Part shown: piece by piece, positions 38,966 through 43,648 of the stretch | Position numbering within the stretch: the stretch's first letter is position 1 | How the letters are laid out: each line of letters begins with the position of its first letter | Source: a virus | IMG/VR virus record: IMGVR_UViG_3300008517_000162 | Coordinates: 1-46,327 of that record | Direction: 5' to 3' (one strand) | Length of the DNA: 46,327 bases | Notes under the pieces: generated by a model | Seen by the model: the letters and a program-made list of their open reading frames with translations, nothing else | Told to the model about the DNA's origin: nothing | Database searches by the model: none | Position numbers and translations under genes: made by a program

Positions 38966-39901
38966 CTATTCCTGTTCTTCGGGAAAATTCGGACAGGCAA
39001 ACTCTCCGAATAACTCCCGCGCTTTTTTGTCGTAGGCTTTGGCAGCCTCTAATTCCGTATCAAAATACCCAATAAAAATCTCCTTGCCGTTCTGCGTAAT
39101 CCGGGCCACCCACCGCTTCTGCCGCTGTGGTCGGGCGTCAAACTTTACGCCTTTCCAGTTATTATGACTATCGGAACGCATTTTTTGATTCGCGCTATTC
39201 TCCGAGGGCGTACAAATTCGCAAATTACCCCTACGATTGTCCAGGCCGTCCCCGTTTATATGATCTACCCATATTCCATCCCCGTGTTCTAGGCCGAGGA
39301 TTTCACGTGGCATTCTAATAGTTCGTTTTTTCGGTACGGCTACGGATCGTTTCGCATACCACATCTTATACTCCAAGGAAGCCTGCCATTTATGTTGAGA
39401 AATTAGCGGCCAATCTTGGAAATCAATGCGAGCAAATTCGCCCTGTGTAAGGGGAATCCACACCCCGGTCTGTTGTAAAACCGGGATAAGTTTTTCAGCA
39501 AGTTCCTCGACTGAGTGGAATAAAACATACGATCCGCCATTACTCTCGATCCGATCTTGGAATTCTTTTTGTGCGAGAGACTGTTTGCCCCCTACCCGGC
39601 GCTTTGCCTCGCACTCCAAACGTCGTCCGCTTGGTAGAATCCCGGTTATATCGGCCGAACCCACAAACCCGAATTTCATAAAGCCGCCATCATCGAATTT
39701 TACCCCGCCGGTGTTCGACCTCCATACGAACAGCCCGTGTTGTCGTAGCCACTGTAGACCTTCTTTCAAAACTTCGGCCTCCAGCCCTGCCTTCTTAGGC
39801 TTGCGCTTCCGTGGACCTACGGGGCAGTTTTGGGGGAGACTCACGGTTAATTCCCAAATGCAAGGAACCAGAGATACCAGATCATAGATGTCATAGTCCA
39901 T
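38966..39901 (-). CDS. VRR-NUC nuclease fused to HNH-AP2 homing endonuclease
   Basis: A 311-residue fusion. Residues about 40-145 form a VRR-NUC domain: EAEVLKEGLQWLRQHGLFVW, GSADITGILPSGRRLECEAK (metal-binding Asp and Glu-x-Lys) and GGSYVLFHSVEELAEKL. From about 150 to the end is a phage HNH endonuclease with AP2 DNA-binding domain: the HNH core WVDHINGDGLDNRRGNLRIC, then NWKGVKFDARPQ and EIFIGYFDTELEAAKAYDKK. Free VRR-NUC proteins end near residue 145, so the homing endonuclease appears to have joined at the C-terminus without a stop. The SD before the ATG at 39901 is poor. Confidence 0.85.
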   Translation of the reverse strand: MDYDIYDLVSLVPCIWELTVSLPQNCPVGPRKRKPKKAGLEAEVLKEGLQWLRQHGLFVWRSNTGGVKFDDGGFMKFGFVGSADITGILPSGRRLECEAKRRVGGKQSLAQKEFQDRIESNGGSYVLFHSVEELAEKLIPVLQQTGVWIPLTQGEFARIDFQDWPLISQHKWQASLEYKMWYAKRSVAVPKKRTIRMPREILGLEHGDGIWVDHINGDGLDNRRGNLRICTPSENSANQKMRSDSHNNWKGVKFDARPQRQKRWVARITQNGKEIFIGYFDTELEAAKAYDKKARELFGEFACPNFPEEQE

Positions 39902-40525: not shown

Positions 40526-40731
40526 TTATCACGCTCCTTGTCCGAGGACCGGGGCAAGTCCATGACGGCCTCCATAAGCTCGTCGGCGTATTCACCCCAC
40601 GCTTGCATCGCCCGTTGGTCATTAAGTGTGGCATTGATTCGAGCGAGAAACTCCGGCATAGGAGAATCAACAACTTCGAGTTCCTCTCGAAAAGCTTCAA
40701 GAAGCCACTTGATCGTTCCTCCCCCACTCAT
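40522..40731 (-). CDS. Small acidic helical protein
   Basis: A 69-residue protein, overlapping the DNA polymerase stop by ATGA, with LLEAFREELEVVDSPMPEFL and AWGEYADELMEAVMDL. No family recognised; polymerase-coupled by position. Confidence 0.6.
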   Translation of the reverse strand: MSGGGTIKWLLEAFREELEVVDSPMPEFLARINATLNDQRAMQAWGEYADELMEAVMDLPRSSDKERDK

Positions 40732-43463
40732 TTCTCGTACCTCTTACATACCCGGCACTCTGCATCTATAGGCAAACCCCCAGCCCACACTGGCGGGGTC
40801 TTAATGATCTTCTCAATCGCCCCCCGGTATGTTTCAATCTCCCATACCGGCACGATCACCGCCATATCGTCATGCACAATAAGCGGGAGTCGCACCCCCA
40901 ATGCCTCGATCTTCAACACGGCTTCGGCCAACAGGTCGCGGCTCACTGCTTGGACACAATTATGGACCAACCGCAGGTTATTTGTATCGTCCAGCACACA
41001 AAATCTATGGCGGGGGCCGCAGTCTAGGAGGTCAAAGACTTCCGTAGCGGCTGCCCTCGGTAGTGTCTGCTGTATATGGCCCGAAGTCCCACCCCCTCCT
41101 GTCGAGCAATTTCGCGGAATTTCGGCAACAGTCGAGGGCCGCGTTTGTTCTGTGCTTGCTCCTTGTACGTTGCCCATCGACAGTTCCCCGGTCGGTAATC
41201 GCCATCGTTGTCTATCCGCTCCAAAGTTAAGCCCGGCACATACGTATCGCTCATATCGGCCCAAAAAGCCTCGAACGAATTGACCCAACGCTTGCAAACT
41301 CGTATGTCCCGCCCTCCGTAGTTCTTGTAACAAACCCGCCGCGTATCCGTGCAACGGGATTTCATATCTCCCCACACTCCATATAGTTTGTGGTCTCTGT
41401 GCGGTTTCTTGCGGGAACAATAGCGACAAGACCGAGTACCATAAGTCGGAGACGTAAGAGAGGAAGAACGGATATTCCAAGTGCGCCCGCATTCGCAACG
41501 GACGCGCCAAATTTGGTTCTTCCCGTCGTATCGCACCCATTCTATTACCGTAAGGCGACCGAACATCTGCCCACTCAAATCTCGTAAGGTCCGTGGCATG
41601 TTTCCACCCCTCATCCGTCATGCATAAATGATCCGGTGTTAGATCAATTCCGCTTCGTCCAACGACCTGTTGTACTCCGCGACTGACCAGACCTTTATGG
41701 GCGACCCAATCTTCGCCGTCCCATATCAGATCGGAATTCTTAACGCGGGATAAAAGCACAATTCCACGATCAGTTACGACCCTCGTATGCCCGGCGAGAC
41801 AATTCTCCACCAGATAACCGCCCCAAAAATAAATCTTCTTATCGTGACTAGCGGGGTTCGGCATCACAAGCTGATCCGAACCTTCAACCCTTGCCCCGAT
41901 ATACCGCAGTCGGCGGGTACTCGGCAGTTGTATGAACGTGGTCGTGTCCTCCCGGAAGAACTCGATACCGAACGAAAGCCCATACTTCGTACCCGGATTC
42001 TGCACGGCCGATTTAAACGCTCGCTCTACCTTATTCCAATACCGTACCACCATCTGATTCTGTTTGCGGTACAAGTTAATGAGCCGCTTAGCCTCTTGGG
42101 GGACCAGCGTGATACCATAGGTGTTCTTTGAGAACTTCATACACTGTTCCCAACCGAGGCCGTATCCTGCGCCGAGAATGCCAATCTTACCCATCTGTCG
42201 ATAATGCCCGTACCACTCGGCCACTACCCCGCTGTCTGTCTTACGCGGCTTCCGAATCCTGTGTCCCGTAAGCTGACTGGCAAAATCGCAGTAGACTGCC
42301 CGACCCTCCGCGAAGGCCCGTACCAGATCATTCTGTCCGGCCAACCATGCAAGTACCCTGGCCTCGATCTGCGAGAAGTCGAGGATCATTAGAACATGAC
42401 CCTCCGGGGCCTCGATCAACGTGCGTATCTGATTGGCAAGCGGGTCTGCCCTGGCGGGGAGATTCTGTAGATTGATACCCTCCCTACCGGACCACCGGCC
42501 AGTATGCGCACCACAATAGCTTAAAGGCACGGCTAGTTTGCCGCCACCGGCCTCGGCAACTCTACGCATCCTATCAATCCGTTTGATATGTAATGGGAGA
42601 CTCTTACATGCTACACGGGCTTGCATAAGCTGTGATATCCGCTCATTTTCATGGTTCGATAGACGCTCGTACCCGGCATCCGTCTTGGCAATGGCGAGGA
42701 TCATACCCTTCTTGCCCCGCTTCATCGGAGGTTCCTCGGACCCCAACGCTTCACGGAGCAGGGCTTCAAAGGACTTATTGCCGCGTATTTCTTTCTCCGA
42801 TGCTCCAATCAATGCTACGTCGATCATCATCCGTTCGACAAGAGCTACCTCTAATTCCTCAGCCCGATCAAAGTTGAATTGCAGTATCGGGGAAAGAAAC
42901 GAATTTCGGGTATACTCCATCACCTTCAATTCAAAGGTCGGGTTACTTAACTGCGGCAGAAGGATATTAAGTAGATCGTACTCCCGCTCTGCATCGTTCA
43001 TGGCGTACAATGCGAGATTCGGATGCTGATTTTCTTCTTTGATACCCGCTTTATGCAGCCCCATAAATTGTTTTGTATCACCCTTCGCCGGTAGACCATG
43101 CCGCTCGCACAAAGCAGCCAGCTTATTAGACCGGCGAGGTTCTACGTGCCGGGCAAGATCGAGTATGTCCACGATATACTTCGGGTAGATGTCGTAATGT
43201 CGGGCCAGAACCAAGGCATCGAAGAACGCATTTTGCATCACTACGGTAGTATTTTCGTAGTCAATGTCGGGCAGTTCATCGTAGAAATACGCCAACTCGG
43301 AATCATGTTTAACTGCCCACCCTAAGACCTCAAACCGCCCATCGGTAACGTACTCCCAGGTGGACATCTTCGACAAGGTATACTCCTTGTCGTAGTATGT
43401 CTCGGCGTCGAGTACCAGAGTGGTCGGGGGGTAGCCGCATTGTCGGAGTATGTCTTGGATCAT
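40728..43463 (-). CDS. Family A DNA polymerase with in-frame intein
   Basis: A 911-residue precursor, about 630 residues after intein removal, the size of T7-like polymerases. 3'-5' exonuclease: LVLDAETYYD (Asp19, Glu21), VVMQNAFFDALVLARHY and YAMNDAEREYDLL. Polymerase motif A, MILDFSQIEARVLAWL, near 362; motif B, RQMGKIGILGAGYGLGW, near 421; motif C, LPLIVHDDMAV, near 862, with HDD where most members have HDE. A 281-residue intein (555-835) interrupts LVEN/CVQAVSRD just before motif C. The ATG at 43463 overlaps the previous stop; a longer frame starts at 43508. Confidence 0.95.
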   Translation of the reverse strand: MIQDILRQCGYPPTTLVLDAETYYDKEYTLSKMSTWEYVTDGRFEVLGWAVKHDSELAYFYDELPDIDYENTTVVMQNAFFDALVLARHYDIYPKYIVDILDLARHVEPRRSNKLAALCERHGLPAKGDTKQFMGLHKAGIKEENQHPNLALYAMNDAEREYDLLNILLPQLSNPTFELKVMEYTRNSFLSPILQFNFDRAEELEVALVERMMIDVALIGASEKEIRGNKSFEALLREALGSEEPPMKRGKKGMILAIAKTDAGYERLSNHENERISQLMQARVACKSLPLHIKRIDRMRRVAEAGGGKLAVPLSYCGAHTGRWSGREGINLQNLPARADPLANQIRTLIEAPEGHVLMILDFSQIEARVLAWLAGQNDLVRAFAEGRAVYCDFASQLTGHRIRKPRKTDSGVVAEWYGHYRQMGKIGILGAGYGLGWEQCMKFSKNTYGITLVPQEAKRLINLYRKQNQMVVRYWNKVERAFKSAVQNPGTKYGLSFGIEFFREDTTTFIQLPSTRRLRYIGARVEGSDQLVMPNPASHDKKIYFWGGYLVENCLAGHTRVVTDRGIVLLSRVKNSDLIWDGEDWVAHKGLVSRGVQQVVGRSGIDLTPDHLCMTDEGWKHATDLTRFEWADVRSPYGNRMGAIRREEPNLARPLRMRAHLEYPFFLSYVSDLWYSVLSLLFPQETAQRPQTIWSVGRYEIPLHGYAAGLLQELRRAGHTSLQALGQFVRGFLGRYERYVCAGLNFGADRQRWRLPTGELSMGNVQGASTEQTRPSTVAEIPRNCSTGGGGTSGHIQQTLPRAAATEVFDLLDCGPRHRFCVLDDTNNLRLVHNCVQAVSRDLLAEAVLKIEALGVRLPLIVHDDMAVIVPVWEIETYRGAIEKIIKTPPVWAGGLPIDAECRVCKRYEK
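40959..41801 (-). mobile_element. Intein in the DNA polymerase, with nested out-of-frame HNH gene
   Basis: Polymerase residues 555-835. N-terminal splicing blocks: Cys1 in CLAGHTRVVTDRGIVLLSRV and the TxxH block IDLTPDHLCMTDEGW. C-terminal blocks: EVFDLLDCGPRHRFCVLDD and the terminal His-Asn (RLVHN), followed by Cys as the +1 extein residue. This is a complete class 1 Hint set. The conserved splicing parts sum to only about 100 residues. The roughly 190 residues between them have no family resemblance; they are the second-frame reading of an HNH endonuclease gene on the same strand. So the intein carries its endonuclease as an overprinted separate gene rather than as an in-frame domain. Confidence 0.9.
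41024..41599 (-). CDS. HNH homing endonuclease nested out of frame inside the intein
   Basis: A 191-residue protein on the same strand as the polymerase but shifted by one base. N-terminus: DLSGQMFGRLTVIEWVRYDG, then a zinc ribbon CECGRTW...CRYCS. Middle: LYGVWGDMKSRC and NYGGRDIRVCKRWVNSFEAF. HNH-type core: LTLERIDNDGDYRPGNCRWA. C-terminal HTH-like helix (FREIARQEGVGLRAIYSRHY), typical of homing-type DNA recognition. The ATG at 41599 has GAGGGG with 7 bases of spacing; another ATG lies at 41614. The gene ends within the first residues of the C-terminal splicing block. It probably mobilises the intein. Confidence 0.85.
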   Translation of the reverse strand: MPRTLRDLSGQMFGRLTVIEWVRYDGKNQIWRVRCECGRTWNIRSSSLTSPTYGTRSCRYCSRKKPHRDHKLYGVWGDMKSRCTDTRRVCYKNYGGRDIRVCKRWVNSFEAFWADMSDTYVPGLTLERIDNDGDYRPGNCRWATYKEQAQNKRGPRLLPKFREIARQEGVGLRAIYSRHYRGQPLRKSLTS

Positions 43464-43648
43464 TCCCTCGTAGCCTCGACTTCCGCAAGGCTCATAATTC
43501 TGCCCCATCGCATGTCATAGCCACAGACGGGGCAATGCAGAACGTAACGAAACGATTCATAGTCTGTCAGCAACTCAATGCGCTCGCACTCGCCGCAACG
43601 CATCACTAAGACGGGGGCAGCGTCACATGCGAAGGGTATGTAGTTCAT
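43460..43648 (-). CDS. Zinc-ribbon protein
   Basis: A 62-residue protein with two Cys pairs (RCGECERIELL and HCPVCGYDM), a zinc ribbon. The last codon region overlaps the polymerase start (ATGA). Function unknown. Confidence 0.7.
   Translation of the reverse strand: MNYIPFACDAAPVLVMRCGECERIELLTDYESFRYVLHCPVCGYDMRWGRIMSLAEVEATRE

Follow-up and report, generated by a model that had tools for sequence, protein, structure and literature searches.

A putative HNH homing endonuclease gene overprinted out of frame in a phage DNA polymerase intein, and its counterparts among phage inteins

Inteins and homing endonucleases are textbook partners that share one reading frame. The locus described here lies on the minus strand of a 46,327-nucleotide virus sequence (IMG/VR record IMGVR_UViG_3300008517_000162, positions 1 to 46,327; the whole stretch is called the window) and raises the question of how the two are joined when the endonuclease gene occupies a different frame of the same DNA. 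An earlier note had claimed that a complete 191-residue HNH endonuclease gene, preceded by a GAGGGG motif, is overprinted inside a polymerase intein. The coordinates it gave for the intein and the HNH open reading frame (ORF) were correct when the sequence was re-read (Table 1).

Table 1. Features of the polymerase intein and its nested HNH gene, in window coordinates
Feature	Position	Strand	Basis
Family A DNA polymerase precursor, 926 aa, interrupted by the intein	40728..43508	(-)	Pfam, PHROGs
Intein, 281 aa; insertion site LVEN/CVQA	40959..41801	(-)	Splicing motifs, Hint-fold model
N-terminal half of splicing (Hint) domain, residues 1-78	41568..41801	(-)	AF2 pLDDT
Intein linker, read out of frame across the HNH gene; predicted disordered, stop-free	41055..41567	(-)	pLDDT ~45-73
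C-terminal half of splicing (Hint) domain, residues 250-281	40959..41054	(-)	AF2 pLDDT 91-97
Cys+1, first C-extein residue, splicing nucleophile	40956..40958	(-)	Sequence
HNH-type homing endonuclease gene, 191 codons plus stop, frame +1 of the intein	41024..41599	(-)	phrog_374, AF2
GAGGGG Shine-Dalgarno-like site, 7 nt before the HNH ATG; within intein codons around Glu-Gly	41607..41612	(-)	Sequence

The polymerase ORF is a single uninterrupted frame, with matches to Pfam DNA_pol_A (3.3e-23) and a 3'-5' exonuclease domain and to phrog_17 (5.9e-66). The full set of splicing motifs that had been claimed for the insert was located: Cys1 (41801-41799), T55PDH58 (block B), FDLLDCGP (block F) and H280-N281 (ending at 40959). 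With Cys1, the block B TxxH, block F, His-Asn and Cys+1 all present, the insert fits the class 1 inteins by its sequence, and Cys1, TxxH, the block F Asp, His-Asn and Cys+1 were invariant or nearly so across 61 relatives. A split intein, in which the halves lie on separate ORFs, was rejected for the window, as its intein is part of one continuous ORF.

The product of the nested ORF was assigned to the HNH family by its matches to phrog_374 (HNH endonuclease; 1.3e-50) and phrog_3377 (6.7e-39). A Pfam search of the same product gave no HNH match, and its profile match to I-HmuI was weak (E 0.042). The HNH ORF is complete and lies out of frame inside the intein. Elsewhere in the window, a 311-residue ORF at 38966-39901 (-) has a C-terminal HNH_3 domain (4.3e-07) and an AP2-like stretch (6.7e-06, under the Pfam cut-off), and its front half resembles a VRR-NUC-type nuclease by eye. 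This ORF may represent an HNH-AP2 endonuclease fused in frame to a phage gene.

Structure models were obtained for both frames. In the AF2 model of the intein, built with 59 family members, pLDDT was 96-98 over residues 1-70, 88 over residues 71-80 and 91-97 over residues 251-281, with values of ~45-60 over most of the overprinted linker. Foldseek matched this model to the mini-inteins 7cfv, 6qaz and 5i0a (probability 1.00, E ~1e-3), which identifies a Hint fold. The AF2 model of the HNH frame reached a pLDDT of 88.8, and a Foldseek search with it returned nothing significant.

The intein frame contains no stops across the HNH gene, while synonymous shuffling of the 191 HNH codons, with the protein and the codon make-up kept, led to an expected mean of 8.3. 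As none of the 5,000 shuffles was stop-free (P<1/5000), a frame left open by chance was rejected. The third frame across the same gene contains eight stops. Likewise, 75 non-redundant units with HNH in +1 had no intein-frame stops versus 471 expected by synonymous shuffling (third-frame control, 853 versus 815); these units were defined by their open intein frame, whereas the 71 inteins counted below by means of the N block were not. No intein-frame stops were found in seven +2 units either (29 expected). Among 70 HNH matches without a detected intein, regarded as free-standing genes, stops numbered 1,076 versus 1,186 expected. An alternative frame was open in three of these 70, two of which (L200 and L209) are inteins with a missed C block and one of which (L138) is open by chance. 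The earlier note had named a frameshift, an assembly error or an intein-frame stop as grounds for abandoning its reading. The frame is open, and as the same arrangement occurs in many independent records, with an identical layout in ~100 distinct ones, a sequencing frameshift or assembly error was rejected.

A translated search with the window polymerase retrieved APSE-1, Caulobacter phages, Shewanella phage SFCi1 and others. In APSE-1/2, Caulobacter phage GB2A and SFCi1, an open intein lies near the same polymerase motif, with HNH in +1. No match was returned by blastn of the window intein DNA against phages or by a single-protein pattern search with the window polymerase, and neither the pattern search nor the translated search turned up a close relative or an empty site for the polymerase of the window. 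Scanning IMG/VR with four intein-frame sequences yielded 80 loci, with HNH in +1 in 80/80 and with the motifs and an open intein frame throughout. One of these loci (L009) has a broken HNH frame and resembles a decaying copy.

For an unbiased count, the scan was made with the intein N block only and was thus blind to the endonuclease. Of the 71 distinct inteins retrieved, 61 had HNH in +1, 5 had HNH in +2, 3 had no HNH and 2 lay at contig ends, one of the latter (L185) being a complete mini-intein. The intein frame was open in all 66 HNH-bearing inteins. An in-frame endonuclease domain was rejected, as an in-frame HNH occurred in none of the 71. The alternative-frame HNH genes that the earlier note had suggested looking for in the polymerase inteins of phage genomes are therefore present in 61/71 (+1) and 5/71 (+2). 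Judged by the sequences compared here, the arrangement is not a one-off but is standard across a large group of phage inteins. Mini-inteins of ~125-165 residues without HNH occupy the same polymerase sites, which indicates that the HNH gene is a separable insertion. One mini-intein (L194, 3672-4163) has a longer linker of 164 aa, perhaps a remnant left after loss of the HNH gene.

The +2 type includes the polymerases of Jerseyvirus and Kagunavirus, common Salmonella and E. coli phages, in which a polymerase intein with a +2 HNH ORF was observed in L088 (2501-3400), L089, L245 and L246. In the Jerseyvirus and Kagunavirus records examined, at most the intein is annotated and never the HNH gene. 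Intein-frame stops occur around the HNH gene in L040 (1700-2700), L048 (1300-2200) and L051, which are apparently split inteins with the HNH gene between the halves. A smaller N-block alignment searched against genome contigs found three bacterial loci only. In an Arsenophonus endosymbiont genome (L241), a prophage copy of the APSE-like intein has its HNH split across frames and is a decaying unit.

The comparison of codon-position substitution patterns proposed in the earlier note shows selection on both frames. Over 170 pairs, difference rates at intein codon positions 1/2/3 were.23/.16/.50 in the N block,.48/.24/.20 in the overlap and.24/.16/.44 in the C block. Because the variable position switches at the HNH borders, such that the flanks change as an intein and the middle changes as an HNH gene, both frames must be under selection. 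In the +2 Jerseyvirus pairs, changes in the overlap fell mostly at intein position 2, equivalent to the third position of the HNH codons. Residue similarity in the intein frame exceeded expectation in the overprinted units (z 20), as did that in the third frame, which is read from the same bases (z 16), whereas free-standing HNH genes showed no such excess (z 1.7). This excess was concentrated at the start of the HNH gene, in its first ~15 codons (mean z 6.8), and was ~0.3-1.5 elsewhere; the borders are thus truly dual-coded, and the rest of the linker needs little beyond stop avoidance. The earlier statement that the same DNA must satisfy two proteins thus applies to approximately the first 15 HNH codons; it is too strong for the remainder, where the intein frame mainly avoids stops and is modelled as disordered. 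Taken together, the data support a reading of the locus as an intein across which an HNH endonuclease gene is overprinted in another frame, and the comparisons show that both frames are maintained.

A Shine-Dalgarno match of at least 4 nt with proper spacing before an ATG or GTG was detected in 81 of 90 non-redundant units. A recognizable Shine-Dalgarno was absent from 9/90 units and also from several +2 units, and start support was weaker in the +2 group. The HNH starts are located mostly at intein +187, +202 or +220, with that of the window at +202. Where the ATG is at +187, the Shine-Dalgarno sequence GAGGT lies within the codons for Glu59-Val60. Glu59 was encoded by GAG in 27 of 31 inteins with this ATG versus 8 of 14 without it (P = 0.049), and the 27/31 also differed from a 47:52 background (P = 7e-5); GAGG was not a selection condition in these codon counts.

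We consider it very probable that the locus is a mobile intein whose splicing domain and homing endonuclease are nested in the same DNA but made as separate proteins. Translation of frame 0 of the polymerase mRNA would yield the precursor, in which the Hint domain (residues 1 to ~78 and 250-281) would fold around the disordered linker and excise itself. Ribosomes would also start at the ATG at 41599 behind GAGGGG, producing a free 22-kDa HNH endonuclease from frame +1. Polymerase alleles lacking the intein would be cut by this enzyme at the insertion site, and the whole unit would be copied during repair. Across the HNH gene, the intein frame would need only to remain free of stops, save for approximately the first 15 HNH codons, which would be constrained in both proteins. 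The reading draws on the anatomy, the selection on both frames, the conserved internal starts and the exact empty sites in relatives that are visible in the sequences, and from it we infer splicing, internal translation, cutting and homing.

Ribosomes could instead shift from the intein frame into the HNH frame, which would produce an intein(N)-HNH fusion and not a separately started protein. The offset of the main group is a constant +1, the HNH N-terminus overlaps the intein N block and a few units are without a clear Shine-Dalgarno, all of which is compatible with frameshifting. However, 81/90 units have their own start codon and Shine-Dalgarno at conserved positions, the Glu59 codon choice favours the Shine-Dalgarno, another group uses +2 and the polymerase product would be sacrificed, and we regard this explanation as very unlikely. 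It is most unlikely that splicing has been lost and that the polymerase tolerates the retained insert as a loop, the explanation proposed for the ShiLan insertion. A long linker that is predicted to be disordered would suit such a loop, but Cys1, TxxH, the block F Asp, His-Asn and Cys+1 are (nearly) invariant in 61 sequences, in the intein frame both the N and C blocks are under purifying selection, a Hint fold is confidently predicted and the insert interrupts a conserved polymerase motif.

The missing Pfam HNH match would be expected if the HNH ORF were a relic or a chance ORF that is not made. This is hardly credible given the phrog_374 match (E 1.3e-50), the ordered model and the substitutions in the overlap, which concentrate at HNH third positions even among close relatives. 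A self-splicing RNA intron carrying an HNH gene has precedents, as HNH-bearing group I introns are known from phage polymerase genes and gp38/gp39 of Sodalis phage SO-1 are annotated in this way. However, no intron family reached the Rfam gathering score in the window polymerase and four relatives (the Rfam searches of L090, L001, L003, L088 and L244 gave no match at that score except unrelated sRNAs in L001), and the frame is open throughout all units. With no Rfam intron match and with the intein motifs conserved, a group I intron was rejected, and the probability of an RNA intron is close to nil.

For the proposed nested but separately translated endonuclease, indications of mobility come from relatives. 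Among 418 matching Jerseyvirus records, coverage of the intein-containing polymerase query is at least 80% in 151 and ~71%, in two pieces, in many others. The Jerseyvirus Salmonella phage skrot (L247) has an intein-less polymerase of 2202 bp with ~94% identity and the exact empty site IGKA/CELGLGY. Such exact presence/absence alleles are consistent with homing in Jerseyvirus, and by analogy with these relatives the window copy is presumed to be mobile as well. The intein-less skrot allele already has the Cys required at +1, which may favour invasion. In L008, a second intein occupies a site that is empty in APSE-1 (extein identity, ~88-91%).

The polymerase intein sites are YGGK[LS]/CEN, xEN/C[VTC]QA, YGGK/CVEN, GKA/CELGLGY and ELA/CGYGG, and inteins were also found in SNF2-type helicases (Pfam) and one terminase (phrog_2). 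Two overprinted inteins per ORF were observed in L066 (1884-4154) and L082 (2762-4906), both of which are terminase large subunit-like. Pfam searches of these putative terminase hosts and a PHROGs search of L082 returned nothing, although one of the putative terminase hosts was confirmed by phrog_2. On the HNH tree, the +2 group forms one clade (99) and the split group forms another (100), and therefore overprinting probably arose more than once. The nearest rows to the window HNH are free-standing genes, with weak support, and a single clade with the others was not rejected (AU P = 0.52).

Overall, the comparisons of DNA and predicted proteins indicate that the finding is real, general and under selection, and they strongly suggest a mechanism in which splicing proceeds in one frame and a free homing endonuclease is made from an internal start in the other. 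We lean towards the broader view that a large group of phage inteins (in DNA polymerases, SNF2-type helicases and terminase) is overprinted out of frame as a rule, and that HNH genes entered mini-inteins at least twice (+1 and +2) with the splicing frame kept open by selection each time. If this is true, a class of mobile inteins would exist in which the endonuclease, though nested, is made as a protein of its own, and surveys seeking only in-frame domains would score such inteins as endonuclease-less. Overprinting would be the solution of dozens of divergent phages to the joining of the two, in which the endonuclease is freed from the splicing domain at the cost of a ban on stops in a second frame. 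The group would also represent a large and statistically clean natural case of overlapping genes, with free-standing HNH genes, mini-inteins and split inteins as controls. Overprinting would account for intein linkers that carry no annotation in common phages (Jerseyvirus, for example), and laboratory phages would allow a direct test of how an endonuclease gene invades a mini-intein.

Canonical inteins, with in-frame LAGLIDADG or, in a few, HNH endonucleases, share with the window family a Hint domain split by the endonuclease between blocks B and F and mobility at the DNA level. However, their endonuclease is in frame, whereas the window family encodes it as an ORF of its own, in a different frame of the shared DNA. 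In 2009, Dassa et al. reportedly described 'fractured genes', in which a free-standing endonuclease gene separates the halves of a split intein. There, the endonuclease is likewise separately encoded between intein halves, a layout apparently shared by L040, L048 and L051. In contrast, the window intein is continuous, and its endonuclease DNA would therefore also be translated as linker. The same arrangement as in the window, a homologous intein with HNH in frame +1, is found in APSE-1 (NC_000935), where P45 (DNA polymerase with intein) and the nested HNH P46 are both annotated. P46 within P45 is known as an annotation only, and no description of it as an overprinted intein endonuclease was found in the accessible literature. 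The polymerase of Sodalis phage SO-1 (L244, 1094-4282) is annotated with a type I intron and a nested gp39 and is read here as an intein with HNH in +2. In the Felix O1 paper, a frame mismatch was used to rule out an intein (PMC3185647).

The earlier note knew of no described example. This held for an out-of-frame HNH inside an intein, of which a full-text search of open-licence papers found no description; it did not hold more broadly, as APSE-1 P46 is annotated and the ShiLan domain has been published without an intein. PMC11855218 cites two earlier works for overlapping frames, the Gosselin 2025 preprint on actinobacteriophage inteins ('non-canonical architecture') and Gorbalenya 1998 ('Non-canonical inteins'), and given these works, priority for an out-of-frame HNH in an intein is uncertain. 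The ShiLan domain, reported in 2025 and the nearest case in the published literature, is an out-of-frame HNH in a phage methylase that has no splicing domain and is predicted to be retained in the host protein (PMC11855218). It resembles the window locus in that a stop-free insertion carries the HNH in another frame, at ~195 aa, and in its patchy distribution (PMC11855218). However, the ShiLan insertion is without a splicing domain (PMC11855218), whereas the HNH gene of the window is enclosed by a full predicted Hint domain.
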